From assembly GCA_018820765.1 (NCBI GenBank), contig JAHJNN010000015.1:1-64000 (forward strand): 64,000 nt of DNA, given 5' to 3'. Shown in pieces: positions 12,111 through 64,000 of this stretch. The stretch is from Gammaproteobacteria bacterium. Lineage in GTDB: Bacteria > Pseudomonadota > Gammaproteobacteria > Burkholderiales > Thiobacillaceae. A program made the position numbers and the translations under genes. The notes below the pieces were generated by a model. It worked only from the letters and a program-made list of their open reading frames with translations. It did no database searches and had not been told where the DNA came from. The stretch's first letter is position 1, and the number at the start of each line of letters is the position of its first letter.

Positions 12111-13391
12111 ATGAGCCAGCAAGCCGGCCTTTCTTTCGAACAGGCACCGCCGTTCTCGCTGCCGCTGCGCTTCTTCCTCACCGCGCCGCTGTTTCTGCTT
12201 GCCGCCGCGATTCTCATCGCGCTGTCGCCCGACGCGCTGGCCTCGCGCTGGACGCCGCAGGCGCTGGCGCTGACCCACGCATTCACGCTGGGCTTTCTCG
12301 CCATGGTCATGCTGGGCGCCTTGATGCAGATGCTGCCGGTGGTGGCGGGCTCGCCGATGCCTGCGCCGCGCCTCGTCGCCCGGGTCAGCCACGTCTCGCT
12401 GGTGCTGGGAACCGTCGCCCTGATGGCGGGATTCCTGACCGCCGAACCGGCCGCCTACGGCAGCGGTGTCGTTCTGCTGGGCGTGGGCTTCGCCGTCTTT
12501 CTCGCCGCTGCCGTCATCGGCCTTGCGCGCGCCGCGGCCGGCGTCACCGTCAACGGCATCCGCTTCGCGGTGACGAGCCTTGCGCTGACCCTCCTGCTCG
12601 GGCTGGCGCTGGCGCTGTTGCGCGCAGGCTGGTGGGTGCCGCCTGCCATCGAGTCCGCCATCGCCGCGCACGTGAGCTTCGGCCTCATCGGCTGGGTGCT
12701 GCTGCTGGTGATCGGCGTCGCCTATCAGGTGGTGCCGATGTTCCAGCTCACGCCGCCGTATCCGCCCCGGCTCAGCCGCTGGCTGGCCGCCGTGGTGTTC
12801 GCCTTGCTGCTGCTTCACGCCGCTGCACCGCTGCTGCCGCCGGCTGCCGTCCATCTCGTCGACGCCGCGCTTGCCGCCGGCATCCTGCTGTTCGCCGTTG
12901 CCACCCTGCGCCTGCAATCCCGCCGCCGCAGAAAACTGCCCGACGTCACCCTCGAGTATTGGCGCCTGGGCATGGCCAGCCTCATCGCCTGCGTCGCCGT
13001 CTGGCTCGTCGCCCAGTTCAGCCCGGCCTGGGCCGACAGCGAGGCCTATCCGCTGCTGCTGGGGATTTTGTTCATCGGCGGTTTCGCAGTCAGCGTGGTG
13101 AACGGCATGCTCTACAAGATCGTGCCCTTCCTCGCCTGGTTTCATCTGCAGTCGCAACTGCAGGCCAAGGCGGGCAGCATCCCCACCATGAAGGACATGA
13201 TTGCCGAACGCCGGATGCGCGGGCAGTTCCGCCTTCACCTCGCGGCCTGCGCGCTGCTGGCCGCCGTGCCGTTCTGGCCGCAGCTGGGCATGGCAGCGGG
13301 CAGCGTGCTGGGGTTGTCGGCACTGCTGTTGTGGATCAACCTGCTGTCAGCGGTGCGCCGGTTCACCCGTCACGGCGGCGGCTTTTCCTAG
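12111..13391 (+). CDS. Polytopic membrane protein, NnrS-related
   Basis: 426 aa with about 11-12 hydrophobic segments. Conserved-looking positions include [61 protein letters not shown] and [19 protein letters not shown]. These membrane histidines (H after LT, AH, FH) could bind heme or metal, as in NnrS and heme-copper oxidase relatives. It resembles uncharacterised proteins found with hemerythrin genes in denitrifiers; I am not sure it belongs to NnrS proper (compare the clear NnrS at 58246-59448). The ATG has only a weak ribosome binding site. Its 3' end overlaps the convergent cusA gene by 29 bp. Confidence 0.65.
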
Positions 13392-54903: not shown

Positions 54904-55356
54904 TTAGGCTGCCATCCAGCGCTGCGCCGCGCGCGCCAGCGGGGCGGGCAGCTGGCGCAGCACGGTGTCGGGGTCGAGGGCATCGAGCAGATTCTTGACG
55001 GTGAGGCCGAGTTCGGTGTCGCCTTCGCTGACCAGACGGCGGCTGAAGAAGAGGGTGTCGGGGTCTTCGCGGCGGGCGAGCAGCAGCAGGAAATCGCGGG
55101 CGGTGGCGCTGATGGTGAGATCGGGCGCGCCGCTGTCCGCCGCGAATCCGCTTTGGGTGACGGTGAAGCGCAGGTTGAGCCCGAGGTCCTTGACGCGGAT
55201 GGCGTAGCGGCGGCCGGCCAGCGCTTGCCAGTCGAGGGTTTTAAGCGCGGGCCACAGCAGGCGGTTCGCCACGGCTGAAAACGCCAGGCTGGGCGGCGCG
55301 GCGGGGAGCCGGGTGACGACGTTGGCGAGTTGCGGGGGCAGGGCAAGGTTCAGCAT
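54904..55356 (-). CDS. ubiT: UbiT-like SCP2 protein for O2-independent ubiquinone synthesis
   Basis: 150 aa. SCP2 lipid-binding domain: LPPQLANVVTRLPAAPPSLAFSAVANRLLWPALK, LAGRRYAIRVKDLGLNLRFTV, DLTISATARDFLLLLARREDPDTLFFSRRLVSEGDTELGLTVKNLLDALD. In E. coli UbiT carries prenyl intermediates to UbiU-UbiV under anoxia. ATG 55356 overlaps the UbiV stop (55350) by 7 nt; the longer track ORF extends into the antisense of UbiV and is not real. Confidence 0.92.
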   Translation of the reverse strand: MLNLALPPQLANVVTRLPAAPPSLAFSAVANRLLWPALKTLDWQALAGRRYAIRVKDLGLNLRFTVTQSGFAADSGAPDLTISATARDFLLLLARREDPDTLFFSRRLVSEGDTELGLTVKNLLDALDPDTVLRQLPAPLARAAQRWMAA

Positions 55357-56243
55357 GAGCGCTCCATTCCATATTCGAGTCCGGCACGACCATGCCAGTA
55401 ACCGTCGACGGGCGGGCCGGGCAGGATGTGCGTCAGCGTGTCCGCCGCGCGGGTGTCTCCCGCCAGCGCCGCCTGGAAGGCTTCGGCCACGCGCCCCATG
55501 TGGCGCGACTGCGGCGACAGGCGCAGGCTGGCGATGCCGAGTTTGCGCAGCGCGGGCAGCTCGCCAATCAGGTTGTAGACGCCGGCGGACTGGGTCTGGA
55601 TGCCGTTGAGCGTGAGGAAGGGTTCGCCCTCGCGGGTGGACAGCGGCAGCCCGTCCGGATGGTCGAGGCAGCGGAACTGGCAGTCGTCCTTGGGCAGGTT
55701 GTAATGGCGCGCGGTGAAGCAGCGCGCGGAGTACGCCAGCGGCAATTTGCCGTAGGCGAACACTTCGGTTTCCATGCTGGCCGGCGCGCGTTGGAGCAGC
55801 GACGCCAGGGCGTCGCGCGACATTTCCACCGGCGGCAGCCAGCGCGTCGCGCCCAGCCCGGCGAGCACGTCGAGCGTCTCGGGGTTGTAGACATTGAGCG
55901 TGGGCCCGGCGACGAAAGGCACGCCGGCTTCGGACAGCAGCCGCACCGCGCCCCATTCGTTGGCCTCGACCCGGAAACGGCCGTCGCCCACGATGCGGCG
56001 CAAGGTCTTGAGGTCGGATTCGGATTCGATCAGCGTCTGGCTGGACAGCACCACCTCCTTGCCGGCGGCGGCGAGGTGTTCCGCCAGCTCCAGCCAGTCG
56101 GGCAGGCGCAGCAGGTGGCGGCGCGAACAGACGCTCTCGCCCAGATACACGCGCGCCACCGGCCAGCGTTTCGCTTCGTCATAGAAGGCGAGCACGTCGT
56201 CGCGCGACCAGTAGTAGAGGAGGGGGCCGAGGGAGAGGTTCAT
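55350..56243 (-). CDS. ubiV: UbiV, U32-family O2-independent ubiquinone hydroxylase subunit
   Basis: 297 aa. The four Fe-S cysteines sit at exactly the E. coli positions and spacings: C39 (GESVCSRRHL) and the C-x12-C-x3-C set in SARCFTARHYNLPKDDCQFRCLDH. UbiU-UbiV hydroxylates ubiquinone precursors without O2. Length is normal. It follows UbiU after 60 nt and is coupled to UbiT. Confidence 0.95.
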   Translation of the reverse strand: MNLSLGPLLYYWSRDDVLAFYDEAKRWPVARVYLGESVCSRRHLLRLPDWLELAEHLAAAGKEVVLSSQTLIESESDLKTLRRIVGDGRFRVEANEWGAVRLLSEAGVPFVAGPTLNVYNPETLDVLAGLGATRWLPPVEMSRDALASLLQRAPASMETEVFAYGKLPLAYSARCFTARHYNLPKDDCQFRCLDHPDGLPLSTREGEPFLTLNGIQTQSAGVYNLIGELPALRKLGIASLRLSPQSRHMGRVAEAFQAALAGDTRAADTLTHILPGPPVDGYWHGRAGLEYGMERSC

Positions 56244-56303: not shown

Positions 56304-57341
56304 TTACTTCCATGGGCGGTGGTAGGCGCCGAGCGTGTGGCTCTGGCCTTCGGACAGCTTGTTGAGCTCGGCCTGCCAGGCGGGCGTGGGCTTGAAGGCG
56401 TCGGCGTTTTTCTTCACCGCGTCGATGGCGGCGCGCCACACTTTCGTTACCTGGGTGACATAGGCGGGGCTGCGCTGGCGGCCTTCGATCTTGATGGCGG
56501 CGACGCCGATCTTCAGCATGTCGGGCAAGAGGTCGAGGGTGTTGAGGCTGGTGGGTTCCTCGATGGCGTAGTAGGTTTCGCCGCCGACGTTGAAGCGGCC
56601 CTTGCACAGGGTCGGATAGCCGGCCTTTTCGTTCTTGCCGTAGCGGTCGAGCAGCACGCCGTTGAGGCGCGACTCCAGGCCGGCCGGCGTCTCGGTCCAC
56701 TGCACGGCTTTCGCCGGCGAGCACACGCCCGCCGAATTGGGCGATTCGCCGGTGCAGTACGACGACAGCAGGCAGCGCCCCTCGACCATCACGCACAGGC
56801 CGCCGAAGCCGAACAGCTCGATCTCGACGTCGGTGTGCTTCACCACGTTTTCCACCTGCGGCAGCGACAGCACGCGCGGCAGCACGGCGCGCTGGATGCC
56901 GAAGTGCTCGCGGTAGAAATTCACCGCTTCGTAGCTGGTGGCCGAGCCCTGCACCGACAGGTGCAGGCGAAGCTGCGGATGCTGTTTGACCGCGTAGCGC
57001 ATCAGCCCGGCGTCGGCGAGGATGACCGCGTCCATGCCGAGCTTCGCCGCGCGATCGACCGCGCCGGTCCAGCGGCTCCAGGTGTCGGCCTGCGGATAGG
57101 TGTTGAGTGCGAGCAGTACCTTGCGGCCGCGGTCGTGCGCGTAGCGCAGGCCCTCGGCCGCCTGCGCCTCGTCGAAGTTGAGGCCGGGGAAGGCGCGCGC
57201 GTTGGTGTTGTCGCGAAAGCCCATGTAGACCGCGTCGGCGCCGTGGTCGATGGCCGCCTTGAGCGAAACGAGACTACCCGCCGGGCAGATCAGATCAAGC
57301 GCTATGGTTGTGCTCCTTTCGAATTCGGCCGGCACGCGCAC
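56304..57341 (-). CDS. ubiU: UbiU, U32-family O2-independent ubiquinone hydroxylase subunit
   Basis: 333-345 aa depending on start. ALDLICPAGSLVSLKAAIDHGADAVYMGFRDNTNARAFPGLNF is a typical UbiU start. The Fe-S cysteines match E. coli spacing: GLCVMVEGRC (7 apart), then 17 residues to SAGVC and TLCKGRF. The coordinates use the GTG at 57341. Homology and a strong GAAAGGAGCACAACC site, however, point to initiation at an ATA codon (57305), which gives 333 aa against 331 in E. coli. It overlaps the 3' end of the YhcC gene. Confidence 0.92.
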   Translation of the reverse strand: MRVPAEFERSTTIALDLICPAGSLVSLKAAIDHGADAVYMGFRDNTNARAFPGLNFDEAQAAEGLRYAHDRGRKVLLALNTYPQADTWSRWTGAVDRAAKLGMDAVILADAGLMRYAVKQHPQLRLHLSVQGSATSYEAVNFYREHFGIQRAVLPRVLSLPQVENVVKHTDVEIELFGFGGLCVMVEGRCLLSSYCTGESPNSAGVCSPAKAVQWTETPAGLESRLNGVLLDRYGKNEKAGYPTLCKGRFNVGGETYYAIEEPTSLNTLDLLPDMLKIGVAAIKIEGRQRSPAYVTQVTKVWRAAIDAVKKNADAFKPTPAWQAELNKLSEGQSHTLGAYHRPWK

Positions 57342-58245
57342 CCTGGCGGCTGTCGCGCCGTTCCAGTTCGTCGGCGATGCCGTTCAGAATGTCCCATTTC
57401 TTCGCGCACCATGCAGGCGCCAAAAGAATGTCGGGCGAGGCGGTGCCGGTAACGCGATGGTATACCACCTCCCATGGCGTGCGCTCGATCAGGTCGGCGG
57501 CGATGCGCACGTAGTCGGCCTCGGCCATAGGTGCGTACTCGTCGCGCTTCCATTCGATGGCGAGCCGGGTGTGCTTCACCACGTGCAGCGGGTGCAGTTT
57601 CAGGCCATCGACGCCGACGTCGAGCACGCGGTCAAGGCTGGCGTGGCTATGCGAGGCATCTTCGCCCGGCAGGCCGACGATGAGGTGGCAGCACACCGGG
57701 ATGCCGCGCGAGCGCGCGGCGCGGGTGGCGGTTTCGTATTCGGCGAAGCCGTGGCCGCGGTTGACGCGCGCGAGCGTGGCGTCGAAGGCGGATTGCAGAC
57801 CCAGCTCCAGCCACACTTCGTGGCCGCGGTCGCGGTATTCCGCCAGCAGGTCGAGCACCGGCGGCGGCACGCAGTCGGGCCGGGTGCCGATCGACAGCCC
57901 GATCACGTCGGGCGCTTGCAGCGCGGCGTCGTACAGCGCGCGCAGTTCGTCCACGTGGGCATAGGTGTTGGTGTAGGCCTGGAAATAGGCGATGAAGCGG
58001 CGCGCGCCGGTGCCCTTTGCGATACGGCCGCGCGCGCGGTCGAACTGCGCGGCGAGCGGCATCGGGTCGCGTGCGCCGGGGGCGAAGGACTTGTTGTTGC
58101 AGAAGCTGCAGCCGCCGATGCCTTTGCTGCCGTCGCGGTTGGGGCAGGTGAAGCCGGCGTCGAGCGCGATCTTGTGCACCCGCTCGCCGTGGCGCGCCCG
58201 CATGGCGCGGCCGAAGGTGTGGATGCGTGACGAGAGATCGGTCAC
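57295..58245 (-). CDS. yhcC: YhcC-like radical SAM protein (TIGR01212)
   Basis: 316 aa. Radical-SAM cluster site FTCPNRDGSKGIGGCSFC, with DVIGLSIGTRPDCVPPPVLDLL and ELGLQSAFDATLARVNRGHGF typical of YhcC. The exact reaction is unknown. Zero-nucleotide spacing to the nnrS stop (58246) and overlap with UbiU imply one operon. Fe-S and anoxic context fit its neighbours. It is adjacent to ubiUV here; a functional link to them is untested. Confidence 0.9.
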   Translation of the reverse strand: MTDLSSRIHTFGRAMRARHGERVHKIALDAGFTCPNRDGSKGIGGCSFCNNKSFAPGARDPMPLAAQFDRARGRIAKGTGARRFIAYFQAYTNTYAHVDELRALYDAALQAPDVIGLSIGTRPDCVPPPVLDLLAEYRDRGHEVWLELGLQSAFDATLARVNRGHGFAEYETATRAARSRGIPVCCHLIVGLPGEDASHSHASLDRVLDVGVDGLKLHPLHVVKHTRLAIEWKRDEYAPMAEADYVRIAADLIERTPWEVVYHRVTGTASPDILLAPAWCAKKWDILNGIADELERRDSRQGARAGRIRKEHNHSA

Positions 58246-59448
58246 TTAGCCGGGTTTGCCGTCGACCCGCGGGCGCAGCAGGATGGGGGTATAGATCGCG
58301 GCGAACAGGCCGAACGCGGCGATCCACAGCACGCCGGCCACAATCATGCCTTGCGCATACAGGCCGGGGAAAAGCAGCGGCTGGATGACGCGGATCAGCG
58401 CGGCAAGATTGACCGCGACGAAGGCCCACGTCATCAGCGGGGCCGGCTCCAGCATGCGGCCGCTGTGGCCGAGCGAGACGCGCGCCATCATGCCCAGGGT
58501 CAGCACGCCGATGCCGCCGGCGGTGAAGGCATGCAGCGCGCTGCCGGCCGCCGCGCCCAGCCCGGACGCCGACAGGGCAAGCAGGGCGAAGCCGACGGCG
58601 ATCCAGGCGTAGCCCAGGTGCAGGATCCACAACAGCGGCACCGACCAGTATTTGCTCGTGTACCAGCCCGCCAGGCGGACCGCATGCGCGACTGCGGCAA
58701 GTGCCGCGAGCAGCGCGGTGACGATCGAGAAGGGCGCGACCAGGGCGGCAATCAGTGCAGCGATGGTGGCGGCCGGCACCAGGATTTCGATGGCTTTCCA
58801 GCGCCGTGCGCGGGTGCGCAGCTTGTTGTCGGTGAAGCTGGGAATCACCCGGCCGCCCATCACGGTCATCATCGCGACGATGACGTAGGTCGCCAGATGC
58901 AGGCCCAGGCTGGCGCTGACGGCGTCCCACACCAGCGCGTCTGCATGCACCAGCGCATTGGCGGCAGCCAGCGCCAGCAGCATGAAGGGGAAGGGATAGT
59001 TGTGCAGCTGCTTGGCCTTGAGGATGGGCAGGGCGAGCACGATGGCGAGCACCGGCAGGAAGGCGAAGTCGACGGCCGCGACCAGCACCGGCGGCAGGCC
59101 CGGCACCAGAAAGCTCACGCGGCCCGCCAGCCACAGCACGAACAGCGCGGCCAGCGGCGCGCCGGACGGGGTGGGAATCCCGGTCCAGTTTTGCGCCGCG
59201 GTGAGCAGGAAGCCGGCGATCACCGCGACGGCAAAGCCGAACAGCATTTCGTGGCCATGCCAGACAAACGGCGACAGGCTGCCGAGCGAGAGGTCGCCGC
59301 GCAGCACCAGCAGCCACAGCGCCATCATCAGCACGGCATAGAGGCCGGCGAACAGGAAAAACGGCCGGAAGCCCAGCGCGAAGGGCGCCCAGCCGACGGG
59401 CGGCAGAGGTTTGTTCGCGTTCTCGATGCGGTGCAAGGAAATTCCCAT
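58246..59448 (-). CDS. nnrS: NnrS family heme-copper membrane protein
   Basis: 400 aa, about 12 membrane helices. Signature stretches: FALGFRPFFLFAGLYAVL, WHGHEMLFGFAVAVIAGFLLTAAQNWTG, MGGRVIPSFTDNKL and HAFTAGGIGVLTLGMMARVSLGHSGR. NnrS proteins protect denitrifiers from NO stress and bind heme/copper. First gene of the operon nnrS-yhcC-ubiU-ubiV-ubiT-MOSC. Starts at 59448; preceded by a repeat-rich spacer. Confidence 0.94.
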   Translation of the reverse strand: MGISLHRIENANKPLPPVGWAPFALGFRPFFLFAGLYAVLMMALWLLVLRGDLSLGSLSPFVWHGHEMLFGFAVAVIAGFLLTAAQNWTGIPTPSGAPLAALFVLWLAGRVSFLVPGLPPVLVAAVDFAFLPVLAIVLALPILKAKQLHNYPFPFMLLALAAANALVHADALVWDAVSASLGLHLATYVIVAMMTVMGGRVIPSFTDNKLRTRARRWKAIEILVPAATIAALIAALVAPFSIVTALLAALAAVAHAVRLAGWYTSKYWSVPLLWILHLGYAWIAVGFALLALSASGLGAAAGSALHAFTAGGIGVLTLGMMARVSLGHSGRMLEPAPLMTWAFVAVNLAALIRVIQPLLFPGLYAQGMIVAGVLWIAAFGLFAAIYTPILLRPRVDGKPG

Positions 59449-59721: not shown

Positions 59722-61170
59722 TCAATGCACCCCCGGCTCACTGTGAACCTGCGCCGGGCGCCGTTCGCTGCGGCCGAGGGTCAGCAGGTCCCACACCAGC
59801 AGCACGAAGCCGGCGGCGAACATCCAGCCGAAGACCTGGCGCCACCACATGCCCTGCGCGAACCACGGGTGGGCCTGGGCGACGAAGTAGCCGACCCAGG
59901 ACGAGCCTTCGATGGCGCGCTCGATCTGCGACTGTTCGTAGCCCGATACCAGCATCGCCATGACCATGCCGATCATACCGAGGTTGAGCAGCCCCAGCGC
60001 CCACTTCCATTTCCAGGCGCCGGCCAGCCCGCCGCTCATCCACACGTTGCCGCGCCATTTCTGCAGGGCCAGATAGAAGAAGGCGATGACCAGCGTGGCA
60101 TAGGCGCCGAAGAAGGCGAAGTGGCCGTGCGAGGCGGACCACTGGGTGCCGTGGGTGTAGAGGTTGATCTGCGGCAGCGTGTGCATGAAGCCCCACACGC
60201 CGGCGCCGAAGAAGTTGCCGAAGGCGTGGGCGATGATCCAGGCGAGCGCCGGATGGTTGTTGTTCTTCATGTTGTGGGTGCCGGAGTCGAACACCGAATG
60301 CACCACCATGGCCACCAGCGGAATCGGTTCCAGCGCGGAGAAGAAGCCGCCGATGGTGAACCAGTATTCCGGCGTGCCGATCCAGAAGTAGTGGTGGCCG
60401 AGCCCGAGAATGCCGGAGCCGAACATCAGCGCGACTTCGATGTAGAGCCAGGTCTCGACGATCTTGCGGCGCACGCCCAGGGTCTGCATCAGTCCGTAGG
60501 CCATCAGGCAGCCGACCAGCACTTCCCAGGTCGCCTCCACCCACAGGTGGATCACCCACCACCACCAGTACTGGTCGACCGAGATGTTGGGGGTGTAGAA
60601 CATGCCGGCCAGATAGATGCCGAACAGGGCGATCAGGTCCAGCGTCAGCACGCCGCCGATGCCGGTGTAGCGGCCCTTGGCGAAGGTGGCGGCGACGTTG
60701 AAGAAGAACACCAGCACGCACACGACGATGCCGATGTCGGCCCAGCGCGGCGCCTCGATGTACTCGCGGCCCTCGTTGATGAGCCAGATCGAGCTCTGGT
60801 CGCCGGGGCCGACCTGCACCAGCAGATAGACCACCACCACGACCGCGACGGCCAGCGTGAAGACCCAGAAGATCAGGTTGCCGAGCTTGAGCCCCACCAC
60901 CGGGATGCCGGCTTCGTCTTCCAGCAGCCAGTAGCTCGAACCGATGAAGCCGAACAGCAGCCACACGATCATGGCGTTGATGTGCACCATGCGGTTGACG
61001 CTGAAATCGAGCACGCCGTAGAGGAAGTCCGGATTCAGGTACTGGAGGCCGGCCAGGAGGCCGAACACGATCTGCGCGCCGAACAGGGCCACTGCGACGC
61101 TGAAGTATTTGACCGCCAGCTTCTGGCCGCCGTTGAGGTTTGCGCTGTCGAGCGTTCCGGGCATCGCCAT
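59722..61170 (-). CDS. norB: Nitric oxide reductase subunit B
   Basis: 482 aa, 12 membrane helices, heme-copper oxidase superfamily. It reduces 2 NO to N2O at a heme b3-FeB centre. Markers include MVHINAMIVWLLFGFIGSSYWLLEDE, the FeB ligand helix WVIHLWVEATWEVLVG with its glutamate, LGLGHHYFWIGTPEYW (FeB His pair), and late histidines (AFGNFFGAGVWGFMHTLPQ, ASHGHFAFFGAYATLVIAF). Length fits cytochrome c-dependent NorB. ATG 61170 lies one nucleotide after the NorC stop. Confidence 0.95.
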   Translation of the reverse strand: MAMPGTLDSANLNGGQKLAVKYFSVAVALFGAQIVFGLLAGLQYLNPDFLYGVLDFSVNRMVHINAMIVWLLFGFIGSSYWLLEDEAGIPVVGLKLGNLIFWVFTLAVAVVVVVYLLVQVGPGDQSSIWLINEGREYIEAPRWADIGIVVCVLVFFFNVAATFAKGRYTGIGGVLTLDLIALFGIYLAGMFYTPNISVDQYWWWWVIHLWVEATWEVLVGCLMAYGLMQTLGVRRKIVETWLYIEVALMFGSGILGLGHHYFWIGTPEYWFTIGGFFSALEPIPLVAMVVHSVFDSGTHNMKNNNHPALAWIIAHAFGNFFGAGVWGFMHTLPQINLYTHGTQWSASHGHFAFFGAYATLVIAFFYLALQKWRGNVWMSGGLAGAWKWKWALGLLNLGMIGMVMAMLVSGYEQSQIERAIEGSSWVGYFVAQAHPWFAQGMWWRQVFGWMFAAGFVLLVWDLLTLGRSERRPAQVHSEPGVH

Positions 61171-61171
61171 G

Positions 61172-61828
61172 TCAGCCTCCTTGCTGTTGGGTCGGGGAAC
61201 CGCTGTCTGCGGGCGCTTCGGCCGGAGGCGGGTCGGATTGGTCGATCGGCGTGAAGTTGGCGGGGAAGCCGTTGGTGTCGATGGAGGCCATCCACTTCAG
61301 GAAGGCCACGGTCGCGCGCGCCTCGTCCCCGGTGATGCCCAGGTTCGGCATGCGGCGGCCGAGGCCGTTGTGCAGCCGGTCCTGCGGGTTCATCAGGAAG
61401 TCGACCATCTGCTGCTCGCGCACCTCCTTCGAACCCCAGGACGGATCGAGCCAGGATTTGGTGAGGTCGGGGGCGTAGTAGGCGCCGTTGCCGAGCAGGG
61501 TGTGGCAGTTCATGCAGTTCTTCGCCTGGGTGGTCAGCTTGCCGCGGCTGACCAGCGCTTTGGCTTCGGCCTCGGTGAGCGTCTTGCCGAACAGCGGCTC
61601 CTCGACGCCGATGACCGGCACCTGGAAGTTGCGCTTCTCGTCGAAGACGTAGTCGATGCGGTGGTTGATCACAGAATAGGCGGGCACCCGCGTGCCGCCC
61701 GCGGTGATCGCGGACATGCTGTCCAGGGTGAGAACGATGAGTACGACGAAGGAGCCTGCCGTGACCCAGATGGCGGTTTTGCGCCAAAAGGATTCGGAGG
61801 CCCACCACTGAAGCTGCGACATGGCCAA
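61172..61828 (-). CDS. norC: Nitric oxide reductase subunit C (cytochrome c)
   Basis: 218 aa. An N-terminal membrane anchor (IWVTAGSFVVLIVLTLDSMSA) and a cytochrome c domain with CMNCH (AKNCMNCHTLLGNGAYYAPDLTKSW) and distal Met (RRMPNLGIT). It feeds electrons to NorB. A Pro/Asp-rich C-terminal tail is longer than usual. An AGGGAGGG site precedes the ATG (61828 or 61822). Upstream is a dispersed repeat, which may hold or displace regulatory sites; no NnrR/DNR box was found. Confidence 0.94.
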   Translation of the reverse strand: MAMSQLQWWASESFWRKTAIWVTAGSFVVLIVLTLDSMSAITAGGTRVPAYSVINHRIDYVFDEKRNFQVPVIGVEEPLFGKTLTEAEAKALVSRGKLTTQAKNCMNCHTLLGNGAYYAPDLTKSWLDPSWGSKEVREQQMVDFLMNPQDRLHNGLGRRMPNLGITGDEARATVAFLKWMASIDTNGFPANFTPIDQSDPPPAEAPADSGSPTQQQGG

Positions 61829-61850
61829 CCCTCCCTAGGTGTGAACAATT

Positions 61851-61941
61851 CCGTCATCGCGAGGAGCGAAGCGACGCGGCGATCCAGAGGCCTTTGATTT
61901 GGCTGAGACTCTGGGTTGCTTCGCTTCGCTCGCAATGACAC
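61851..61941. repeat. Dispersed REP-like repeat upstream of norC
   Basis: cgtcatcgcgaggagcgaagcgacgcggcgatcc at one end pairs with the inverted gggttgcttcgcttcgctcgcaatgac at the other. Second full member of the family at 19891. It fills almost the whole spacer between norC and the upstream gene. Confidence 0.75.
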
Positions 61942-61949
61942 CTTCTTCT

Positions 61950-62294
61950 TCATGAATGTTGTCGAAAAGCTCGGGGTTCCTCATCCGCGTGCTCGTCCGC
62001 GTGGGTGCCGACGCACAGATGCCAGATGGCATGCGGCGCGAGCAGATAGCCGATGAGCATGAGCGCGACGATGAGCGTCCAGAAGCCGGTTGCGAACAGA
62101 TTGGCCACCGTCGCCAGCACCAGCACCGACGCCACCAGTCCGAGGTAGGCGAGGTAGGCGACCGGCATCAGCCGCGGCTGCCGGCGCACGCGCGCATAGG
62201 CGAACAGCAGCGCATACAGCGCCCCGCACAGGATCACCATGGCGGCCGAGAAAAAGCTCAGAAAGAAATCCTGCAGCGCGACGGGTTCGATCAT
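61950..62294 (-). CDS. Small membrane protein in the nor cluster
   Basis: 114 aa with three hydrophobic segments (LQDFFLSFFSAAMVILCGALYALLFAYARV, YLAYLGLVASVLVLATVANLFATGFWTLIVALMLIGYLLAP) and an AIWHLCVGTHADEHADEE tail. No domain recognised, but small polytopic proteins occupy this place beside norCB in related denitrifiers. The ATG at 62294 begins a hydrophobic protein; the longer track ORF runs through antisense DNA. The repeat at 61851 lies between it and norC. Confidence 0.7.
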   Translation of the reverse strand: MIEPVALQDFFLSFFSAAMVILCGALYALLFAYARVRRQPRLMPVAYLAYLGLVASVLVLATVANLFATGFWTLIVALMLIGYLLAPHAIWHLCVGTHADEHADEEPRAFRQHS

Positions 62295-62329: not shown

Positions 62330-62650
62330 TCAGCCTGTGCTCCAGGCACGTGGCCGCCGCATGCCGGCGATCTTGCAGGCCTGCTTCACGTAGCCGTAGG
62401 GATACAGTTCGAACAGCTTTTTCTGCGCGTCCTTTCCCACGCGTTCGGCCAGGTGCTTGATGACGAAGCGGGCATCGGCGATGACCTGGTGTTCGTCGAA
62501 GTAGTCGCGCATGAAGCGGAGGGTGTCCCAGTGGTCGTCGCTGAGTTCGATGTTCTCCTCCTGGGCCAGGGCGCGGGCGATGTCCTCGCTCCAATCGCCG
62601 GGCTCGATCAAATAGCCTTCTGCATCGCGTTCGGGCAACTCGGTCACCAT
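62330..62650 (-). CDS. DsrC/TusE-family protein lacking the terminal cysteine
   Basis: 106 aa. The DsrC/TusE fold is clear: DAEGYLIEPGDWSEDIARALAQEENIELSDDHWDTLRFMRDYFDEHQVIADARFVIKHL, then YPYGYVKQACKIAGMRRPRAWSTG. True DsrC and TusE carry a penultimate Cys at the end of the C-terminal arm; here the arm ends RAWSTG, so that cysteine is gone while the inner one (QACKIAG) is kept. It therefore cannot make the DsrC trisulfide and is not a normal TusE. A regulatory or sulfur-carrier variant is plausible. 94 nt after the SQR-like gene. Confidence 0.85.
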   Translation of the reverse strand: MVTELPERDAEGYLIEPGDWSEDIARALAQEENIELSDDHWDTLRFMRDYFDEHQVIADARFVIKHLAERVGKDAQKKLFELYPYGYVKQACKIAGMRRPRAWSTG

Positions 62651-62743
62651 GCTTGCGTCCTCCTTTTTAACTGAAAATTCTGAGATTCGTTTTCACGTTC
62701 GGCCGCTGCCATCAGCATAGGCCATGAAAGCGGGCGTGTCGCA

Positions 62744-64000
62744 TCACGTCCCGCCGCCGTGGAACTCGACCCCCGGCTGGTGTTCCGGCAGTTCCTCCAC
62801 CAGCAGTTCGCGCCGCGAGAGCGCCATCGCCTCGACCGCGGCCTCGTTCAGATAGGACTTGGCGTCGGACACCGCGGCGGCCAGCAAGTCGGCCGCCAGC
62901 GCATCGGGCGCGCGCCCCAGCGACTTGGCGAGCGCCCGCAACTCGACGCAGGGCTCCGGCGGCAGCCGGATTTCCAGCGGCGTGCCGGCACCTGCCGGGA
63001 CCGGCGCCGGCACCGGGCGGGCGGAGCCGCCTGCCTCGGCCAGCACCTGGCTCATCACGCTGGCAACCTTCGAGGCGGACGAAGGCGCCTGGCCCGCCGG
63101 CTGCAGACGGACCTTGTTGACGAAATACTTCTCGAAATCGACCTTGGCCTGATGCACCCAGCGGCCCTGGCGCATCCAGTTGATGTCGCGCAGCGGCACC
63201 TGCGGTTCCGACAGGTAGGCCGCGCCGTTATTGCCCATGTCGGAGAGCCATTTGGCGCGCTGCGGCACATGGCTTTCCAGCGGTGCGTCGCTGAGCTGGG
63301 CGAGGATGTTGCGCACCACGATCTCGCCCGCCTTCTGGATCGAATACACCGAGTCGGGCGCGCCCACCGGCACCGGCGTCCTGACCACCGCCGGCTGCGC
63401 AACGCAGGCGCCCAAGGCGAATACATTGGGGTAGTCCGGGTTGCGCAGGTAGTCGTCCACGATCACCAGGCCGCGCTCGTCGACCAGCCCGGGCGAGTTG
63501 CGCAGCCCCGGCACGCCGCCGAAGGCCGGCCAGTAGACCGAGTAGGCATAGGGCAGGGCGTGGGTCTGCATGACGGTGCCGGCGGCGTTCAGCTCGGCCA
63601 CGTGGATGGTGTCCTTGTCGATGCGGGTCGTGAAGGCATTGCAGATCACGCTGATCCTGGTGTCGACCAGCGCGGCGGTCACCGCGCCGCGGCTGGCGCC
63701 TTCGCCGCCGAGGCCGAGGTGGCCGGGCCAGGGTTCGGGCGTCACCAGGGTGATCGTTACCCGATCGCGGATGTTGCGCCGCTTGAGGTCGGCGTCGATC
63801 AGGAAGGCATATTCGTAAATCGGCCCCAGCACGCTGGCGCCCGCCGCCGCGCCGACCACGATGGGGCCGGGATGGCGCACGAATTCCCGGTACGCGGCGA
63901 ACGCCCGCTCGGCCTGGTCGACGTGGATCACAGACTGGGTGTGCTCGGCCATCCCGGGGACGTCGTCGGTGAGGCCGGCCGCGCCGGTGGCGATCAGCAG
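62744..64000 (-). CDS. SQR-like FAD-dependent oxidoreductase, N-terminus outside window
   Basis: Open to the window edge; the track ORF's M at 63952 is internal, as LLIATGAAGLTDDVPG continues upstream in frame. 418 residues are seen. Pyridine-nucleotide-disulfide oxidoreductase fold: the middle domain, then NVFALGACVAQPAV, the FAD-binding segment near the C-terminus of sulfide:quinone reductases and flavocytochrome c. Its C-terminal tail of about 110 residues is longer than usual. Sulfide oxidation is plausible, but the active-site cysteines in the missing part cannot be checked. Confidence 0.75.
   Translation of the reverse strand: MLIATGAAGLTDDVPGMAEHTQSVIHVDQAERAFAAYREFVRHPGPIVVGAAAGASVLGPIYEYAFLIDADLKRRNIRDRVTITLVTPEPWPGHLGLGGEGASRGAVTAALVDTRISVICNAFTTRIDKDTIHVAELNAAGTVMQTHALPYAYSVYWPAFGGVPGLRNSPGLVDERGLVIVDDYLRNPDYPNVFALGACVAQPAVVRTPVPVGAPDSVYSIQKAGEIVVRNILAQLSDAPLESHVPQRAKWLSDMGNNGAAYLSEPQVPLRDINWMRQGRWVHQAKVDFEKYFVNKVRLQPAGQAPSSASKVASVMSQVLAEAGGSARPVPAPVPAGAGTPLEIRLPPEPCVELRALAKSLGRAPDALAADLLAAAVSDAKSYLNEAAVEAMALSRRELLVEELPEHQPGVEFHGGGT

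Follow-up and report, generated by a model that had tools for sequence, protein, structure and literature searches.

A tryptophan-tailed relative of DsrC that keeps only the inner cysteine, accompanies dsrA and may act as a regulated mimic of DsrC

Between the nar and nor genes of a 64,000-nucleotide stretch of Thiobacillaceae DNA (the whole of which is referred to here as the window) lies a gene for a DsrC-superfamily protein in which the inner cysteine of DsrC is retained and the penultimate cysteine is replaced by tryptophan. We use the name DsrC-W for this tryptophan-tailed, inner-Cys-only DsrC relative, which proved to belong to a family with a fixed C-terminal tail that occurs almost exclusively in genomes carrying dsrA. 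Our current working hypothesis is that DsrC-W is a regulated protein that mimics DsrC or competes with it and would modulate the partners of DsrC under nitrate/NO stress or thiol stress; we infer the mechanism, and regard this reading as a serious possibility that nevertheless falls somewhat short of an even chance.

The DsrC-W open reading frame starts with ATG, and its product is placed in the DsrC/TusE superfamily by its predicted fold and by profile matches above the curated cut-offs (Pfam DsrC, PF04358, 107.7 bits, 5e-31, cut-off 24.9; NCBIfam TIGR03342, 94.3 bits, cut-off 53.5), while the TusE model NF008562 reached 79.8 bits, below its cut-off of 191. The tail reads YGYVKQACKIAGMRRPRAWSTG, with the inner cysteine C92 present and W103 at +11, at the exact position of the penultimate cysteine of DsrC, followed by STG. 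In the true DsrC encoded by this genome the end reads CKIAGLPKPTGCI (longer stretch YGPAKQACKIAGLPKPTGCI), and the inner cysteine aligns with C92. The preliminary description of a DsrC-like protein that has lost the penultimate cysteine and kept the inner one was thus correct. The pattern is also distinct, as had been claimed, from those of DsrC (both cysteines) and TusE (penultimate cysteine only), but it is no isolated case and not especially rare. The coordinates of the gene and its neighbours are collected in Table 1.

Table 1. Position of DsrC-W, its key codons and neighbouring genes in the window
Feature	Position	Strand	Evidence
DsrC-W, inner-Cys-only DsrC-superfamily protein, 106 aa, end RPRAWSTG	62330..62650	-	ORF and profile matches
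C92 codon TGC, invariant inner cysteine (CysB position of DsrC)	62375..62377	-	sequence; 28/28 and 43/43
W103 codon TGG, at penultimate CysA position of DsrC	62342..62344	-	sequence; invariant in alignment
Ribosome-binding site AAGGAGG, 9 nt 5' of ATG	62659..62665	-	sequence
SQR-like flavoprotein, 518 aa, 5' end outside the window (to contig position 64300)	62744..64000	-	
Small membrane protein, 114 aa, no family match	61950..62294	-	
norC-like cytochrome c	61172..61822	-	
norB-like heme-copper oxidase family subunit	59722..61170	-	
nnrS	58246..59436	-	
Radical SAM protein, MnmL/YtqA type	57295..58245	-	354.6 bits, cut-off 180
ubiU (O2-independent ubiquinone synthesis)	56304..57341	-	559.5 bits, cut-off 440
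ubiV	55350..56243	-	396.5 bits, cut-off 275

Structure prediction with AlphaFold2 on a 28-row alignment gave a model with pLDDT 87 and pTM 0.76, the last three residues scoring below 50, and all seven significant Foldseek matches to this model in the PDB were DsrC/TusE proteins (TM 0.74-0.83), 1yx3 being the best and 1sau and 2v4j being included. The predicted fold is common to DsrC-W and to DsrC itself (A. vinosum, 1yx3; D. vulgaris, 2v4j chain C), as is the arm LFELFPYG..KQACKIAG with its inner cysteine, and both occur in dsrAB organisms. DsrC sensu stricto is recognized by two C-terminal cysteines 11 residues apart, by presence in a dsrAB organism and by location in the dsr cluster; DsrC-W shares the second of these features only, having tryptophan for the penultimate cysteine, two extra C-terminal residues (WSTG compared with CI or CV) and a position outside the dsr cluster, on contig C14 between nar and nor. 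TusE (E. coli YccK) is of the same superfamily and fold, but has the penultimate cysteine and lacks the inner one (KQATKIAGLPKPVKCI), the reverse of DsrC-W. The penultimate cysteine of TusE accepts sulfur from TusBCD, whereas DsrC-W has tryptophan there.

Eight DsrC-superfamily genes were found in a family scan of the 3.44-Mb assembly, whose named close relatives are Thiobacillus and Thiobacillaceae, including T. denitrificans RG and T. thioparus DSM 505. One is the DsrC with both cysteines, inside the dsr cluster on contig C11; one has the penultimate cysteine only (tail GCV); three have neither cysteine; one further inner-Cys-only protein with another tail lies on contig C5; and two are of WSTG type, namely DsrC-W in the window and a copy at C11:108899 that is 75% identical to it. 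The two WSTG copies have identical tail letters but synonymous codon differences. Loss of the catalytic cysteine is the sole hint that DsrC-W might be a sequencing error, a pseudogene or a decaying copy of DsrC, and we give this explanation next to no probability, as the tail letters are kept in different orders despite synonymous codon changes, a ribosome-binding site is present and promoter palindromes are shared in other families (see below). Indeed, the WS(T/S/V)G tail is common to 89 sequences collected from Beta- and Gammaproteobacteria, and such conservation refutes a frameshift, artefact or decaying copy, including the frameshift named at the outset as a possible refutation.

Several other features of this genome were observed in passing. 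dsrA is present twice, the second gene lying on the window's own contig (G000 contig C14:119538-120791) besides the dsr cluster on C11. The divergent inner-Cys-only protein on contig C5 (L013:9523-9894) has the tail QSCRLSGLKAPFIAADRSFGSVA, and its gene adjoins a GGDEF gene. Next to the dsr cluster on contig C11, a Cas6 gene (L010:12213-12821) directly precedes a DsrC-like gene (12847-13179) whose product has neither cysteine and the tail LTKPYGKGGY.

Carriers of DsrC-W made up 43 of 369 sampled genomes of the class and 45 of 300 genomes of the order, the genome of the window not being counted in the latter. In the order sample a carrier was defined by a full-length match to the last residue of at least 127 bits, true DsrC scoring about 100 bits or less, and one divergent extra copy scored between the two; Thiobacillus often has two copies. 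Across an alignment of 28 sequences, C92, G96, M97, P100, R101, W103, S104 and G106 were invariant, giving the motif PYG..Q.C...GM..PR.WS.G, and C92 was present in 28/28 and 43/43 family sequences. For a tree of the core, the tail and the column of the inner cysteine were removed; all 43 sampled WSTG rows formed one cluster, joined by four rows bearing a second inner-Cys-only tail (..GMRKPLKLMLDV) and by a single divergent copy. Support of the cluster was 84/83, not starred, in this tree of few columns; the result suggests a single origin, as far as so short a core can indicate. When the tail pattern was sought in phylum-wide DNA, hits beyond the family looked mostly chance-like, though the backwards control gave fewer.

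Two variants were noted among the collected loci. At L267, L283, L285 and L286, from Thiobacillus and distant Gammaproteobacteria, there is a second inner-Cys-only type, whose tail is fixed as ..QQAC(K/R)IAGMRKP(L/R)KLMLD(V/I). At L047, L048 and L174, all from one bacterial family, the proteins are of WSTG type and keep the full tail, with several residues missing in the loop before the C-terminal helix.

The strongest statistical association of DsrC-W is with dsrAB. In the class sample, dsrA was present in 41/43 carriers compared with 117/369 genomes overall (Fisher p = 6e-21, shared ancestry uncorrected), the two carriers without it being draft genomes that are 79% and 90% complete, and in the order sample it was present in all 45 carriers. 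DsrC-W tracks dsrA in this way and TusE does not. Conversely, DsrC-W was found in 41 of the 117 dsrA genomes of the class and in 45 of the 62 DsrC-bearing genomes of the order. Links to genes of N-oxide metabolism were less uniform. Among carriers, narG was enriched in the class sample (14/38 vs 5/42, p = 0.016, shared ancestry uncorrected) but not in the order sample (18/45 vs 7/17, p = 1), and presence or absence of norB in the class sample was unlinked to DsrC-W (13/38 vs 18/42). As the narG link is inconsistent and the norB link absent, nitrate cannot be the sole trigger of DsrC-W.

The gene order here, on one strand, is narG-narH-narJ-narI-SQR-like-DsrC-W-membrane protein-norC-norB, followed by nnrS, the MnmL-type radical SAM gene, ubiU and ubiV; narGHJI and the SQR-like gene lie directly upstream of DsrC-W, partly beyond the window end. 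No sigma-70 promoters or terminators above chance were detected within the nar-nor stretch and, with no promoter-like site found between them, the DsrC-W gene of the window is presumably read together with nar. A short palindromic repeat-like element (gtcatcgcgaggagcgaagcgacgcggcgatcc...ggttgcttcgcttcgctcgcaatgac) occupies 61850-61945, between norC and the gene for the 114-aa membrane protein. Gene neighbourhoods were called with our own codon model, retrained for lower-GC loci. The 79 Thiobacillaceae loci included 37 of a nar/SQR-like/nnrS type and 38 of a LysR/HPP type. In the former, the SQR-like gene was directly upstream in 36 and nar genes were present in 33, nnrS was found within 10 kb in 33 and norB in only 5, so that the constant frame is narGHJI - SQR-like - DsrC-W - nnrS and nor is incidental. 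The nor genes named in the preliminary description do lie downstream here (norC at 0.5 kb, norB at 1.2 kb), but they are no constant neighbour elsewhere; what recurs is a nar/nnrS, HPP/LysR or MarR setting. The LysR/HPP type, which is where the second copy lies, has a divergent LysR gene, with an HPP membrane protein downstream in 36/38; other families have a MarR gene in divergent orientation (often 0.5 kb off), a LysR gene or, rarely, a Crp/Fnr-like gene. In two genomes of distant families (L227, L228) narGHJI precedes DsrC-W directly or with one small gene between, and in three further distant genomes narGH lies farther off, within 5-9 kb.

Outside Thiobacillaceae, N-oxide genes, counted as nar, nnrS and HPP (the functions of the HPP and NnrS proteins being poorly known), lay within 7 kb in 19/53 loci and in 0/20 regions taken from these genomes as controls (p = 0.0009); in 34 of 62 inspected loci there was no N-oxide or CBS-domain gene within that distance. 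That HPP, nar and nnrS genes recur nearby in different families would be expected if DsrC-W were a sensor or scavenger of NO, nitrite or redox state, with a nitrosated C92 signalling to, or joining, an NnrS/HPP/NorCB NO defence. A pure NO role does not, however, predict the near-strict co-occurrence with dsrA, nor is there an association with norB, and we consider such a role improbable. The same surroundings, with narGHJI encoding a molybdoenzyme and an MnmL-type radical SAM gene nearby, together with the invariance of C92, could fit a sulfur carrier that works through the inner cysteine alone, for tRNA thiolation or molybdenum-cofactor maturation in anaerobic growth. A general carrier should not be restricted to dsrA genomes, though, and in TusE the penultimate cysteine alone suffices; moreover, A. 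vinosum DsrC took up sulfur at the penultimate cysteine only, the inner one being irrelevant there (PMC3397948). This function seems to us doubtful, if a little easier to entertain than NO sensing.

The SQR-like neighbour is homologous to A. ferrooxidans SQR (3kpk, 3t2y) over residues 1-399 (362 bits), but differs from it in a C-terminal extension and in its cysteines. The catalytic residues C128, C160 and C356 are all replaced in 37/37 orthologues (C128 by I/L/V/M/T, C160 by V/I and C356 by W throughout), while another cysteine, C299, is invariant. Judged by its sequence, the mechanism known for SQR is not available to this protein, because the three catalytic cysteines are replaced, so that DsrC-W does adjoin a close SQR homologue, as the preliminary description had it, but this is a flavoprotein without catalytic cysteines and no working SQR. 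It is striking that both proteins lack sulfur-handling cysteines and that each has tryptophan at one such site (C356 of SQR, CysA of DsrC). This parallel, and the position of the SQR-like gene directly upstream in nearly all nar-type loci, might indicate that DsrC-W of Thiobacillaceae is the private partner of the flavoprotein, the two forming a single unit within the nar operon that transfers electrons or is linked to quinones. The chance of this appears slim, since the SQR-like gene was found in Thiobacillaceae loci only and most families have DsrC-W without it.

The loci with a divergent MarR gene provide a further indication of dedicated control. In the MarR/DsrC-W intergenic regions the words ATATCA and GTGATA were present in 13-14 of 16, more often than in any of 100 shuffles, and form palindromes of the form TATCA-N5-TGATA (TATCAYNNNRTGATA-like) near a TATAAT-like box. 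An exact palindrome search of 22 genomes gave matches in 13 and none in the backwards control; in 11 of these 13 genomes at least one match is at the DsrC-W promoter, which in six (G182, G206, G145, G236, G028 and G213) is the sole place of the palindrome. One cysteine is invariant in 16/16 of the MarR proteins. These data support a mainly local role for MarR, with a possible thiol switch, and the palindrome as its putative operator.

Venceslau et al. (2014) reportedly proposed that DsrC-family proteins lacking the cysteines (RspA) have a regulatory role; in these proteins the conserved cysteines are said to be dispensable. DsrC-W resembles them in that the penultimate, sulfur-carrying cysteine is lost and the gene lies outside dsr clusters, so that a regulatory role is plausible, and regulators (MarR, LysR, Crp/Fnr) stand in many of its neighbourhoods. 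It could thus be an RspA-like DNA-binding regulator whose helix-turn-helix-like part binds promoters, with the lone cysteine tuning the binding. Against this, C92 is invariant in all members examined, which speaks against its being dispensable, and the tail is a fixed motif, whereas RspA is said to need no cysteines; DNA-binding folds of LexA type were reached by the predicted DsrC-W structure only at E > 1 in Foldseek; and the DsrC-W gene seems to be controlled by regulators of its own, as would suit an effector better. We therefore consider an RspA-like function unlikely, although it is the alternative that we would take most seriously.

Apart from the superfamily itself, which is known, and the RspA regulators, which have reportedly been proposed, comparable cases come from viruses. 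Some viral DsrC proteins lack the second C-terminal cysteine (viral dsrC_1; PMC4164917), and among DsrC/TusE-like auxiliary genes of phages the first cysteine alone was found in 1 and the second alone in 112 (PMC8190135). The first-Cys-only type is therefore known from one phage sequence, but the WSTG family had no viral relative in IMG/VR. In the literature searched, which included few subscription journals, we found no description of the tail motif or its distribution, of the dsrA link, or of the nar context and the MarR operator, and for T. denitrificans no published expression data or naming of the family.

We hypothesize that DsrC-W acts on the machinery of DsrC as a mimic or competitor rather than as a sulfur carrier. 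Because the arm up to the inner cysteine is kept together with the DsrC fold, and because the link to dsrA is near-strict, DsrC-W would share partners with DsrC, and docking on some of them (DsrEFH, DsrAB, DsrMK or DsrL) is probable by homology. With the penultimate acceptor cysteine replaced by an invariant tryptophan, it can neither carry a persulfide at that site nor form the intramolecular disulfide of DsrC, and would not be a carrier; the lone inner cysteine would be free for a mixed disulfide, a persulfide or S-nitroso modification. The dedicated regulators and N-oxide neighbours suggest conditional expression, which in Thiobacillus would be tied through the nar operon to nitrate respiration or NO handling, and in other families would be governed by a dedicated thiol-bearing MarR or by a LysR regulator. 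Shared partners and conditional expression together would make regulated mimicry of DsrC, or competition with it, its most likely role, one that would adjust sulfur oxidation by reverse Dsr when nitrate/NO or thiol stress arises. A more specific and somewhat more tentative proposal is that DsrC-W represents a fourth functional class of the DsrC family, a regulatory decoy of reverse Dsr that would sit with its tryptophan plug on the partners of DsrC and throttle sulfur oxidation under such stress, being wired in Thiobacillus into the nar operon with the Cys-less SQR-like flavoprotein.

Sulfur oxidizers carry many DsrC-like copies without an assigned role, A. vinosum having four besides dsrC (PMC3368242) and the present genome eight in all. 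The tail motif, the near-strict co-occurrence with dsrAB and the shared promoter palindrome turn one type of copy into a defined and testable family. If DsrC-W regulates reverse Dsr in nitrate respiration, the sulfur and nitrogen cycles would be joined through it at the molecular level, for example in sulfur-based denitrification by Thiobacillus.
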